From an uncultured Lachnospiraceae bacterium (lineage in GTDB: Bacteria; Bacillota; Clostridia; Lachnospirales; Lachnospiraceae), in assembly GCA_946182825.1 (NCBI GenBank), contig CAMGZH010000014.1, positions 1 to 64,000 on the forward strand: a stretch of 64,000 bases of DNA, given 5' to 3'. This document shows positions 1,396 through 22,004 of this stretch, piece by piece. Under the pieces are notes generated by a model. It had not been told where the DNA came from and searched no databases. It saw only the letters and a list, made by a program, of their open reading frames with translations. Positions within the stretch are counted from its first letter, which is position 1; every line of letters starts with the position of its first letter. The translations under genes were made by a program, and so were the position numbers.

Positions 1396-1501
1396 ATCCC
1401 CTTATTGTTCGATTGCTCGCTCAGGTTGGCACCGTCCTGCCTGTGCAGGGGTTGCCGTGGTTTCACAGATCCTTTGTATCTCCGCCACTCTGAATAAGAG
1501 A
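1396..1501 (-). promoter_or_regulatory. SAM-I (S-box) riboswitch aptamer upstream of metK
   Basis: Minus strand ctcttattcagagtggcggag...ctgtgaaaccacggcaacc...ggtgccaacctgagcgagcaatcgaacaataaggg matches the S-box core; P1 CTCTTATT/AATAAGGG closes. Confidence 0.93.
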
Positions 1502-17756: not shown

Positions 17757-20333
17757 TTACTCCTGACGTCCGTGGCAGTTCTTATATTTCTTACCACTTC
17801 CACATGGACATGGATCATTTGGATAGATCTTCGGTGCCTTACGCTTCTTAGGACCGGAAGATGCGGTTTCATCCTTGTTGGTTCCTGTCACCTTGGCAAC
17901 CTCTTCACGCTCTACCTTCTTCTCAACACGGATTCTGAAGAGCATTGTCACAACGTCTGCCTGGATCGCTGCATTCATGGCATCCATCATATCATAAGAC
18001 TGCATCTTATACTCATCGATTGGATTACGCTGACCATAAGCCTGAAGTCCGATACCCTGACGAAGCTGATCCATATTGTCGATCTCTTCCATCCAGTGAC
18101 GGTCGATGACTCTAAGAAGAATAACACGCTCTACCTCACGGAACTCATCCTCTGTCGGGAACTCCGCTTCCTTCGCATCATACAGAGCAAGGGCATCTTC
18201 GATCATCGCCTCCTCAAGGGTCTTAACATTCTTAACGCCCTTCTCCTCAAGGTAATTCTGATCGATCGGTGCAAGTGGAATGATCTGATCAAAAATACGG
18301 TTTAACTCAGGAAGATCCCACTCATCCATTGCGATTCCGTCGTTCAATACGGTCTCGACATTCACGCGAACCTCCTCGCGGATCATGTTCTGGATCTGCG
18401 GCTTCATATTCTCACCATCCAGAACTCTCTTACGCTGAGCATATACAAGCTCACGCTGATCGTTCATAACCTGATCATACTCAAGCAGATTCTTACGGAT
18501 ACCGAAGTTATTACTCTCGATCTTCTTCTGCGCTCTCTCAATAGCAGAAGAAAGCATCTTATGCTGGATCTGCTCACCCTCAGGAATACCAAGGGAGTTA
18601 AATACACTGATCAAACGCTCCGATCCGAACAGACGCATCAGGTCATCCTCAAGAGAGATGAAGAACTGGGACTCACCCACATCACCCTGACGACCGGCAC
18701 GACCACGTAACTGGTTATCAATACGACGAGACTCATGTCGCTCTGTACCGATGATCTTAAGACCGCCTGCTGCCAGAGACTCATCATCCAGCTTAATATC
18801 GGTACCACGACCTGCCATGTTGGTAGCGATGGTAACAGCTCCGTGCTCACCGGCCTTGGCAATGATCTCCGCTTCCTTCTCATGGAACTTAGCGTTCAAT
18901 ACCTCATGTGGAATTCCTTCCTTCTGGAGAAGACGGCTGACATGCTCAGAAACTTCGATGGTAATGGTACCAACCAGTACCGGCTGTCCCTTCTCATGTG
19001 CCTTCCTTACTTCCTCAACAACCGCAGCAAACTTCTCATCCTGTGTCTTGTATACGGCATCATCATGATCGATTCTCTGTACCGGACGGTTGGTCGGAAT
19101 CTCTACAACATCCATGCCGTAGATATCACGGAACTCCTGCTCCTCTGTAAGAGCAGTACCTGTCATACCACACTTCTTCTCATACTTGTTGAAGAAATTC
19201 TGGAAGGTGATGTCTGCAAGCGTCATGCTCTCGCGCTTTACCTTCACATGCTCCTTCGCCTCAATCGCCTGATGAAGACCGTCAGAATAACGACGGCCCG
19301 GCATGATACGACCGGTAAAGTCGTCAACGATCAGTACCTCATCATCCTTCACAACGTAGTCCTGATCACGATGCATCAACTCATGGGCACGGATCGCAAG
19401 GATAACGTTATGCTGAATCTCAAGATTCTCAGGATCTGCCAGGTTATCAATATGGAAGAAATCCTCTACCTTCTTGATACCGCGCTGTGTCAGGTTCACC
19501 ACCTTATCCTTCTCGCCGACAATATAGTCACCGGTCTCTTCCTGCTCAAGACCCATGATCGCATCCATCTTAGTGAACTCAGGAAGATCGTCACCACGCT
19601 CTAACTGACGGACAAGGATATCGCTCATCTCATAAAGCTTTGTGGACTTACCGCTCTGTCCGGAAATGATCAGAGGTGTACGAGCCTCATCGATCAGTAC
19701 GGAGTCAACCTCATCGATGATCGCAAAATGAAGTCCTCTCTGAACAAGATCCTCCTCGTGTACCACCATATTGTCACGAAGGTAATCAAATCCAAGCTCA
19801 TTATTGGTGATATAAGTAATATCACAATTATATGCCTCCTGACGCTCAGCCTTCTCCATGTCATTCAAGACACAGCCAACGGTCAGACCCAGGAACTCAT
19901 GAACCTGTCCCATCCATTCCGCATCACGCTTCGCCAGGTAGTCATTGACTGTAACGACATGAACGCCCTTACCCTCAAGTGCATTCAGGTAAGCCGGCAG
20001 CGTACATACCAAGGTCTTACCTTCACCGGTTCTCATCTCGGCAATTCGACCCTGATGAAGGATCACACCACCGATCAGCTGTACCCGGAAGTGTTCCATC
20101 CCAAGGGAACGCTTTGCAGCCTCTCGTACTACTGCATAAGCCTCTGGCAGAATGTCATCTGTTGTCTCGCCCTTCGCAAGACGCTCCTTAAAGTAAGGGG
20201 TCTTTGCTCGTAGCTCTTCATCTGATAGTGCCTGCATCTCCGGACGGTAGGACTCGATCTTGTCCACTGTCTTACGGATACGAGCTAGCTCATGCTGGCT
20301 GTGTGTTCCAAAAATCTTTGATACGATACTCAT
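17757..20333 (-). CDS. secA: Preprotein translocase SecA with C-terminal SEC-C zinc motif
   Basis: [49 protein letters not shown]-terminal [16 protein letters not shown]. Confidence 0.98.
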
Positions 20334-20489
20334 GTCGATCAGTCTCCTTAATTATCTGAAGCTTTCTGTGTACTTAGTCCAAGCACATACTATGACATTT
20401 TAGCACTTAACACGTGTTGAAACAATAAAAGCAATTCTTAAATTTTTATAAACTCCCTTCCCGCCCTGCAACCGCACAGAAAATTCCAC

Positions 20490-20538
20490 AAAAATAGAAG
20501 CACCTACCCACCGTTAAAGTGAACAGATGCCCCTATTC
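20490..20538 (-). terminator. Intrinsic terminator of putative noncoding RNA
   Basis: Minus strand aatagGGGCAtCTgttCAC...GTGggtAGgTGCttctatttttg. Confidence 0.65.
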
Positions 20539-20974
20539 TTGAAGTCTGTATTCTATTATTCTACGTCCCAATGGACTGTCCTCATTCTAGTGTAGCAACC
20601 TCGTGATCCCTTCCTCGCTTCTCCGATTCCACATCTTCTGCTCTTCGATCTTCATCACCGACTAAAAACAGCCTCCGTCTCATATCGAGTGTATCTGGCG
20701 ATCATCAGGATCTGTTCCCTCTGACATATACCGGTCAGATTCGGTTAAAGAATAGCTAACGTTCCCTTTGGTACTGCCCTCCGATCTGCTTCGTAGAAGC
20801 CCCGCTCATTCCTCTGTCACCGATGATCCGATACCCTCACCCGTCTGATAAAACTCCTGCCGGGGAGTCTGCCGACGATCCAACTACGCTCAAATCCTAT
20901 CAGAGGTCCTCCTGCCGGGAAGCCTGTCACCGGTCTCTCCGGGTATCGCTTCTTGTCTTTCTCTCTCTTGTTGT
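20490..20974 (-). ncRNA. Putative structured noncoding RNA (~485 nt), family not identified
   Basis: No ORF on minus strand; consensus promoter directly upstream; self-complementary segments CGATACCC/GGGTATCG, CTGATA/TATCAG, CTCCccggcaGGAG, GCTTCtacGAAGC, TCTGAC/GTCAGA; terminator at 3' end. Confidence 0.7.
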
Positions 20975-20980
20975 ATTTGT

Positions 20981-21009
20981 ATATTACAACCATTCCTCGG
21001 TGCTGTCAA
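20981..21009 (-). promoter_or_regulatory. Consensus sigma-A promoter for the noncoding RNA
   Basis: Minus strand TTGACA-N17-TAATAT. Confidence 0.88.
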
Positions 21010-21089
21010 TCGTTATCTGACAATTTATACTGTATACATTCAGTTGACAGATTTTATCCATCTCGGTAGGGAGAACCATCTCCCGGTTC

Positions 21090-21959
21090 CTACCAGGAGA
21101 TCATCTCATATCCGTCCTCAGTTACCAGAACCTGGTACTCCCACTGTGCGGAAGGCATTCCATCCAGAGTGTAGACCTCCCAGCCGTTTTCCTGATCGGT
21201 ATAGATCTGGTTGGAGCCCATATTCACCATTGGCTCGATGGTAAAGATCATACCCGGCACCATCATCATATCCTCACCACGGTTGCTCAGATAACCCACC
21301 CACGGCTCCTCGTGGAACTCAATGCCGACACCGTGTCCGCCGATTTCTCGCACGATGCTGTAGCCGTTTTCCTCAGCGTGGGTATGAACAGCCTCTGCCA
21401 TATCTCCCAAAAAGCCCCATGGCTTTACCTGTGCAAGACCAAGATCACAACACTCCTTTGTGACCTCAACCAGACGTCTTTTCTCCTCATCGACCTCTCC
21501 GATCATGAACATGCGGGAGGAATCGGAGTAGTAACCATCTAAGATCGTAGAGCAGTCTACATTAACGATATCTCCCTCTTTCAGAATAACATCCTTGCTT
21601 GGAATACCGTGGCATACCTGATCATTTACCGATGTACAGACACTCTTTGGGAATCCCTCATAGTTCAGTGGTGCAGGAATTCCTCCCATCTTCTTGGTTG
21701 TATCATAGACGATCTGATCGATCTCAAGTGTCGTCATTCCGGGGCGAATCTTCTCTGCCACCGCATCCAGACACGCCATATTGATCTTAGCACTTTCCTT
21801 GATCTTTGCGATCTGATCCGGTGTCTTGATGATGTCATGCGAAGGAACAATATGTCCCGCTACCCGCGCCTGCTCGATCTTACGATCAAAAGCCTCATGA
21901 CACTGCTTGTACTTTTTACCACTTCCACACCAACAAGGATCATTTCTTCCAATCTTCAT
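21090..21959 (-). CDS. map: Methionine aminopeptidase type I with N-terminal SEC-C zinc motif
   Basis: [24 protein letters not shown] then MAP domain (NDQVCHGIPS, VNVDCS, GHGVGIEFHEEPWV); start trimmed to 21959. Confidence 0.95.
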   Translation of the reverse strand: MKIGRNDPCWCGSGKKYKQCHEAFDRKIEQARVAGHIVPSHDIIKTPDQIAKIKESAKINMACLDAVAEKIRPGMTTLEIDQIVYDTTKKMGGIPAPLNYEGFPKSVCTSVNDQVCHGIPSKDVILKEGDIVNVDCSTILDGYYSDSSRMFMIGEVDEEKRRLVEVTKECCDLGLAQVKPWGFLGDMAEAVHTHAEENGYSIVREIGGHGVGIEFHEEPWVGYLSNRGEDMMMVPGMIFTIEPMVNMGSNQIYTDQENGWEVYTLDGMPSAQWEYQVLVTEDGYEMISW

Positions 21960-22004
21960 TATAGTTGCACTCTTTCTGTTTTTAATTCTCTTTCGTTTTC
22001 TCAA

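Follow-up and report, generated by a model that had tools for sequence, protein, structure and literature searches.

The window analyzed here, a stretch of 64,000 nucleotides from a contig of an uncultured Lachnospiraceae bacterium, contains a gap between the genes map and secA whose minus strand, judged by its sequence, very probably carries a real RNA gene. The components of the locus, all on the minus strand, are given below from upstream to downstream; the term unit refers to sequence elements of an RNA family that is introduced further on.

21090..22004, minus strand: map (methionine aminopeptidase), upstream neighbour
20981..21009, minus strand: promoter TTGACA-17-TAATAT, near-consensus (10 of 12 consensus positions), start of transcription expected near 20974
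20490..20974, minus strand: predicted RNA of about 485 nt, based on sequence features, conservation in sister species and absence of an Rfam match
20829..20948, minus strand: 5' domain, a predicted long hairpin with the ends CGATACCC/GGGTATCG and both CTYCCCGGCAGGAG segments within
20754..20788, minus strand: degenerate internal unit CAGATCGGAGGGCAGTACCAAAGGGAACGTTAGCT, similar to the start-less unit of the family (ungapped unit profile)
20564..20590, minus strand: last unit CTAGAATGAGGACAGTCCATTGGGACG, Shine-Dalgarno (SD)-like GAGG, conserved spacer and TTG start (one-gap profile)
20533..20571, minus strand: short ORF TTG...TAG of 12 codons, occupying the position of the 5-6 codon micro-ORF of the family
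20490..20540, minus strand: terminator-like long hairpin, overlapping the 3' end of the short ORF and matching the terminator part of the family model
20350..20420, minus strand: likely separate secA promoter region (CACGTGTTAAGTGCTAAAAT), resembling the secA upstream region of congeners without the RNA at this place
17757..20333, minus strand: secA, downstream neighbour

The promoter was found in the sequence just as a preceding sequence-only reading of this stretch had claimed, and the region contains four promoter-like sites against 1.5 expected from shuffled sequences. Likewise, all complementary segments named in that reading are present, i.e. CGATACCC/GGGTATCG around approximately 100 nt, two copies of CTYCCCGGCAGGAG, CTGATA/TATCAG, GCTTCtacGAAGC and TCTGAC/GTCAGA. 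The RNA had also been said to end in a hairpin, and a long terminator-like hairpin indeed occurs at about 20540..20490, but it is missed by a simple terminator scan. The designation of the RNA as structured holds for the named segments but not in the sense of more structure than expected by chance: The minimum free energy of -141.4 kcal/mol lies within the range of shuffled sequences (mean -136.9 kcal/mol, z -0.85) and therefore does not demonstrate structure. Compensatory changes were seen in just 5 of the 128 pairs predicted from a three-sequence alignment, a low number that is explained by the close relationship of the three sequences.

It is the conservation of the body relative to the spacers, rather than folding energy, that argues for a real gene. 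Among three congeneric species, identity per 50 nt of the body amounts to 61-92%, compared with 22% and 34% in the flanking spacers, and the 5' domain at 20829..20948 (alignment columns 37-156) is almost unchanged. Two of 12 genomes from the same genus carry the RNA at the same site with 84-89% identity. The minus strand is free of ORFs of 60 or more amino acids, again in agreement with the earlier claim, and neither strand of the region bears an ORF conserved across the three species; in two sister species a plus-strand ORF of 65 amino acids (20823..21020) is without a start codon, and in one it carries a frameshift. A protein-coding reading of the region was rejected on the grounds that no ORF is kept in the three species.

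Infernal cmscan against Rfam, proposed as a check in the sequence-only reading, matched no known bacterial family at this locus. When the complete window was scanned at gathering thresholds, the only hit was a SAM riboswitch (RF00162, 69.2 bits, window positions 1399..1500, minus strand). Scanning the map-secA gap permissively, with 4227 Rfam families and E values up to 10, yielded nothing bacterial, the only matches being chance matches to animal microRNA families. Covariance models for tmRNA, RNase P, SRP RNA, 6S RNA, OLE, GOLLD, ROOL and raiA (RF03072) had no match in the window, and raiA was absent from the genome in a genome-wide search run without positive control. Two options had been put forward, a known large class or an undescribed RNA; the latter fits, whereas the known large classes do not agree with the cmscan results. 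The proposal of an independent, ORF-free RNA gene was sustained by the presence of the RNA at this site in the sister species together with the lack of an Rfam match. A permissive Rfam scan of 12 related loci gave nothing relevant. At locus L019 (1983..2098) a tp2 match remained below threshold (34.6 bits, gathering threshold 50).

The window RNA leads to a large RNA family of gut-inhabiting Lachnospiraceae that appears to be undescribed. The lead was provided by its 3' element, GAGGACAGTCC-A-UUG-GGA. In the map-secA gap of the congeners G002, G006 and G008 the opposite strand contains a promoter, several hundred ORF-free nucleotides, GGAGGTACAGTCC-NN-TGGAC or a near variant of it, and a terminator; the NTG start is missing from the G006 copy. 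The pattern GGAGGTAMRGTCCNNYGGRCA, with one mismatch allowed, was detected in nine out of 120 Lachnospiraceae genera (reversed control, 0), and in the neighbourhoods of these matches the motif recurs along promoter-driven RNAs. At least 120 stretches in the GTDB species collection match the unit pattern AAAGNNAGGTACNNNCCACCNNAAA. Among the matches listed, titled records belong nearly all to Lachnospiraceae or its genera, with one clear exception, a Bacteroidetes record (L045) in which the match looks like ribosomal-protein coding sequence. With a family model consisting of last unit plus terminator (R1) and a cutoff of E <= 1e-4, matches were obtained in 164 of 397 Lachnospiraceae genomes, and in 143 of 334 genera. 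When 391 genomes from across the Clostridia were sampled, R1 matched six at E <= 1e-6, all of them Lachnospiraceae and none outside. The unit pattern occurs once (L214, an IMG/VR contig) among 2.9 million viral contigs, and phage origin was rejected on this basis. Given the range of the R1 matches and the single match in a viral contig, the family is, as far as sampled, a chromosomal RNA of Lachnospiraceae. A description of it was not found in the open-access papers searched. When Clostridium phytofermentans, a member of the Lachnospiraceae, grows on cellulose, its strongest start site is that of a transcript presumed to be noncoding (PMC5171806).

Its position upstream of and in the same orientation as secA bears the possibility that the window RNA is a 5' leader or attenuator of this gene. 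We regard this as highly improbable: The RNA has its own terminator, and secA is preceded by a separate promoter-like region at 20350..20420 that is 80-82% identical across the three species and common to congeners without the RNA. Moreover, the RNA is antisense to secA in G002, G006 and G008, and family members outside the map-secA gap have other neighbour genes. In three congeners (loci L015, L016 and L017) the RNA resides in the map-secA gap in the orientation opposite to that of the window copy; the reversed orientation may stem from an inversion or from independent arrival.

In canonical members, a promoter of the type TTGACA-17/18-TATAAT lies, in most cases, shortly upstream of the RNA, which begins with an A-rich 5' leader. 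One or more start-less units with the consensus GAAAGRRAGGUACRGWCCACCRRAAACNUAA (core GAAAGNNAGGUACRGWCCACC) follow, the first of which is located about 39 nt downstream of the -10 box, or about 85 nt when it stands behind a variant unit. The middle is variable, and one subfamily repeats GUACNNAAGA there; at L037, L041, L044, L058 and their relatives an array of this repeat surrounds a mid-RNA hairpin with varying arms (GTAACG/CGTTAC, GTGCAG/CTGCAG-like). The last unit reads GGAGGUANNGNCC-N-NTG-GAY and precedes the terminator, whose covariation is apparent in the 3' segment, where 16 of 18 predicted pairs show compensatory changes.

The final SD is followed by a micro-ORF of 5-6 codons, typically MDSIV-stop, that abuts the terminator. 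In 46 non-redundant last units the start codon is TTG (28), ATG (16) or GTG (2), never CTG, and always at the same position. A stop codon follows after 5-6 codons in all 46, with TAG, TAA and TGA all in use. Since these units were retrieved by an NTG-containing pattern, the presence of a start codon is in part predetermined by the search, in contrast to the stop position and the synonymous bias. Single-base codon differences, counted pairwise and uncorrected for kinship, are synonymous versus nonsynonymous in a ratio of 979:423 in frame as compared to 191:714 and 145:770 in the other frames. Among 40 further, more divergent model matches the SD-start signature occurs in 31, 30 of which have 5-8 codons. 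Judged by these counts, which were computed on family members other than the window copy, the micro-ORF of the family is clearly under coding selection, and the last unit is a predicted translation start subject to that selection. The term noncoding, which the sequence-only reading had applied to the window RNA, does not strictly apply to the family because the 3' end consists of a ribosome-binding site and a short ORF, an element that had been missed.

The start-less units exhibit bulged complementarity to the 3' tail of 16S rRNA. At the position NN of GAAAG-NN-AGGTAC, 118 units have AG (59), GA (47), CG (6), GG (4) or TG (2), whereas AA is absent against 23.5 expected from base frequencies (Fisher 1e-21, with related sequences treated as independent). 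The absence of AA is what would be predicted for a 10-bp duplex with ACCUCCUUUC containing one bulged base, in which one G must pair while the other base is bulged. The mean energy of pairing between unit and 16S tail is -20.2 kcal/mol as opposed to -9.2 kcal/mol for shuffles and a median of -10.2 kcal/mol upstream of ORFs in the window. However, similar or better energies are reached by several further 20-nt segments of the rRNA operon, and the 16S tail is therefore not singled out by energy alone. In addition, the conserved spacer ACRGWCC and the downstream CCACC-AAACNUAA go beyond what SD pairing alone explains. Conservation of this spacer between SD and start, unneeded for plain 30S binding, is what could be expected if the RNA were a decoy for another RNA-binding protein that reads AGGUACRGWCC, the similarity to an SD then being mimicry of that protein's mRNA targets. 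We deem such a decoy improbable, as it is opposed by the adherence of the NN variation to the 16S-pairing rule and by the use of the last unit as a putative start site under coding selection.

Does the window RNA belong to this family? As in the family, a near-consensus TTGACA/TATAAT promoter is located directly upstream, and an SD-spacer-CC-N-NTG last unit is found next to the terminator, with a one-base deletion relative to the consensus (CTAGAATGAGGACAGTCCATTGGGACG in place of GAGGTACAGTCCATTGGA). With one gap allowed, CTAGAATGAGGACAGTCCATTGGGACG, situated just before the terminator, is the place in the RNA that scores highest against the last-unit profile, and this score was reached in 0 of 200 shuffles in each of the three species. 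The internal unit CAGATCGGAGGGCAGTACCAAAGGGAACGTTAGCT is less distinctive, its ungapped profile score being attained by 4 of 500 shuffles (G004, 0 of 500; G005, 15 of 500). The window RNA is devoid of a canonical start-less 5' unit (GAAAGNNAGGTACRGWCCACC) and has the degenerate internal unit only. G002, G006 and G008 also display the last unit only, and the 5' unit is therefore not universal even among strong R1 matches. Sites complementary to the anti-SD are not enriched in the window RNA (10 versus 10.2 in shuffles). Its ORF comprises 12 codons, and those of the sister species 11-12, with a 3-nt indel in G004 that preserves the frame, as against 5-8 codons in the family; the second residue is not acidic. 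R1 gave 16.2 bits on the window copy, for the terminator part only (E 0.04; genome-wide E 0.9), and at E <= 1e-4 does not detect it genome-wide. Profile HMM and BLAST searches for homology of the body to other family members returned short chance matches only. The reversed orientation in G002, G006 and G008 and the missing NTG in G006 also count against the family assignment. A candidate for a second family copy in the genome, a 28.9-bit match on C45, was rejected as the end of a glutathione-peroxidase-like gene. Because the last-unit match is kept, yet a canonical 5' unit and an enrichment of anti-SD sites are lacking and R1 sees the terminator only, we infer that the window RNA is a divergent member of the family. 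The missing body similarity, the weak score with the family model, the deviating ORF length and the GC-rich hairpin body would suit a structured orphan RNA confined to a few species and unrelated to the family, with an ordinary short translation start near its terminator as 3' element. This reading appears rather unlikely to us in view of the gapped last-unit match, which is the best place in all three species, and of the spacer ACAGTCC, which is shared with the family in addition to the SD. It is further disfavoured by congeners that hold canonical last units in their map-secA gap and by a genome without any other strong family match.

Taken together, we consider it somewhat more probable than the contrary that the locus is an independently transcribed RNA gene, a divergent member of the undescribed Lachnospiraceae family, that works by engaging ribosomes. 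Promoter, terminator, conservation, the lack of an Rfam relative, the shared 3' element and the coding selection on the family micro-ORF can be read from the sequences. Docking of 30S subunits, abundance of the RNA and any effect on translation are what we infer for the following scheme. In canonical members, the start-less extended SD units would allow 30S subunits to dock without initiation, and a docked subunit would shield the transcript against 5'-3' decay in the fashion of a STAB-SD; the docked units may also titrate 30S subunits. On the NTG at the 3' end, a ribosome would initiate, read 5-6 codons and halt at the terminator stem. In the lineage of the window copy the 5' units would have been lost or degenerated, such that mainly the 3' ribosome site remains on a folded body. 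A bolder and distinctly more tentative proposal is that of an RNA class specific to the Lachnospiraceae lineage and driven by near-consensus promoters, which acts on ribosomes in parallel to 6S RNA acting on RNA polymerase: Start-less extended SD units would hold 30S subunits while the pentapeptide micro-ORF at the 3' end is translated in brief rounds, resulting in a ribosome sink or hibernation-like factor from which the window copy would be derived with its 3' site only.

A STAB-SD has been described for the cry3A mRNA of Bacillus thuringiensis: Close to the 5' end of this mRNA lies an SD-like sequence that is not used to direct translation and is able to pair with the 3' end of 16S rRNA, and the bound 30S subunit is thought to block RNase J1 (PMC4113751). 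By sequence complementarity the start-less units look like elaborated STAB-SDs. While a STAB-SD stabilizes an mRNA, however, the family units are part of a stand-alone, terminated RNA, and they are often repeated, bulged and accompanied by the conserved downstream CCACC and the 3' micro-ORF. To our knowledge, repeated SD units or a micro-ORF do not occur in the raiA motif family. Like the family presented here, raiA motif RNA/ModT is a conserved stand-alone RNA in Bacillota (RF03072; PMC11706538). OLE, GOLLD and ROOL are alike in size class, and their cellular role is likewise mysterious (PMC12286853); they are defined by elaborate conserved folds, in contrast to the linear units and micro-ORF that define the present family.

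Repeated short purine-rich sites along one RNA are also a feature of the sponge RNAs CsrB and RsmZ. A CsrB-like function of the family, with repeated GGA-rich sites titrating CsrA, would be in line with the recurrence of such sites, with the GUACNNAAGA repeats in the middle of one subfamily and with the presence of CsrA in the window genome and many carriers. GGA is not conserved in the family, however, many units being devoid of it (AAAGCGAGGTAC, AAAGTGAGGTAC), and no CsrA match was obtained in 6 of 15 canonical-carrier genomes, including Blautia, Eubacterium ramulus and Lacrimispora, nor in G129, G141 and G153. Since carriers such as Blautia and E. ramulus appear to be without CsrA, an obligate sponge role is disfavoured, and we attach very little probability to this explanation.

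Ribosome engagement, the reading that we prefer, would place translated and non-translated functional parts in one RNA, as is the case for the dual-function sRNAs SgrS, SR1 and RNAIII, except that the ORF of the family, which directly adjoins the terminator, is only 5-6 codons long. With five codons, a conserved ORF of this kind is below the size that gene finders call. In the mammalian gut, Lachnospiraceae belong to the dominant bacteria, and an RNA gene in at least two fifths of their sampled genomes that is driven by near-consensus promoters and absent from Rfam and from the papers searched would represent a sizeable gap in the knowledge of their biology. If it is true that start-less units hold 30S subunits, this would constitute a new mode of acting on translation. 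In Eubacterium ramulus (L065) the RNA contains about eight units, some of which have two-codon ORFs (ATG AAA TAG, ATG AGA TAA) that are reminiscent of phage minigenes.
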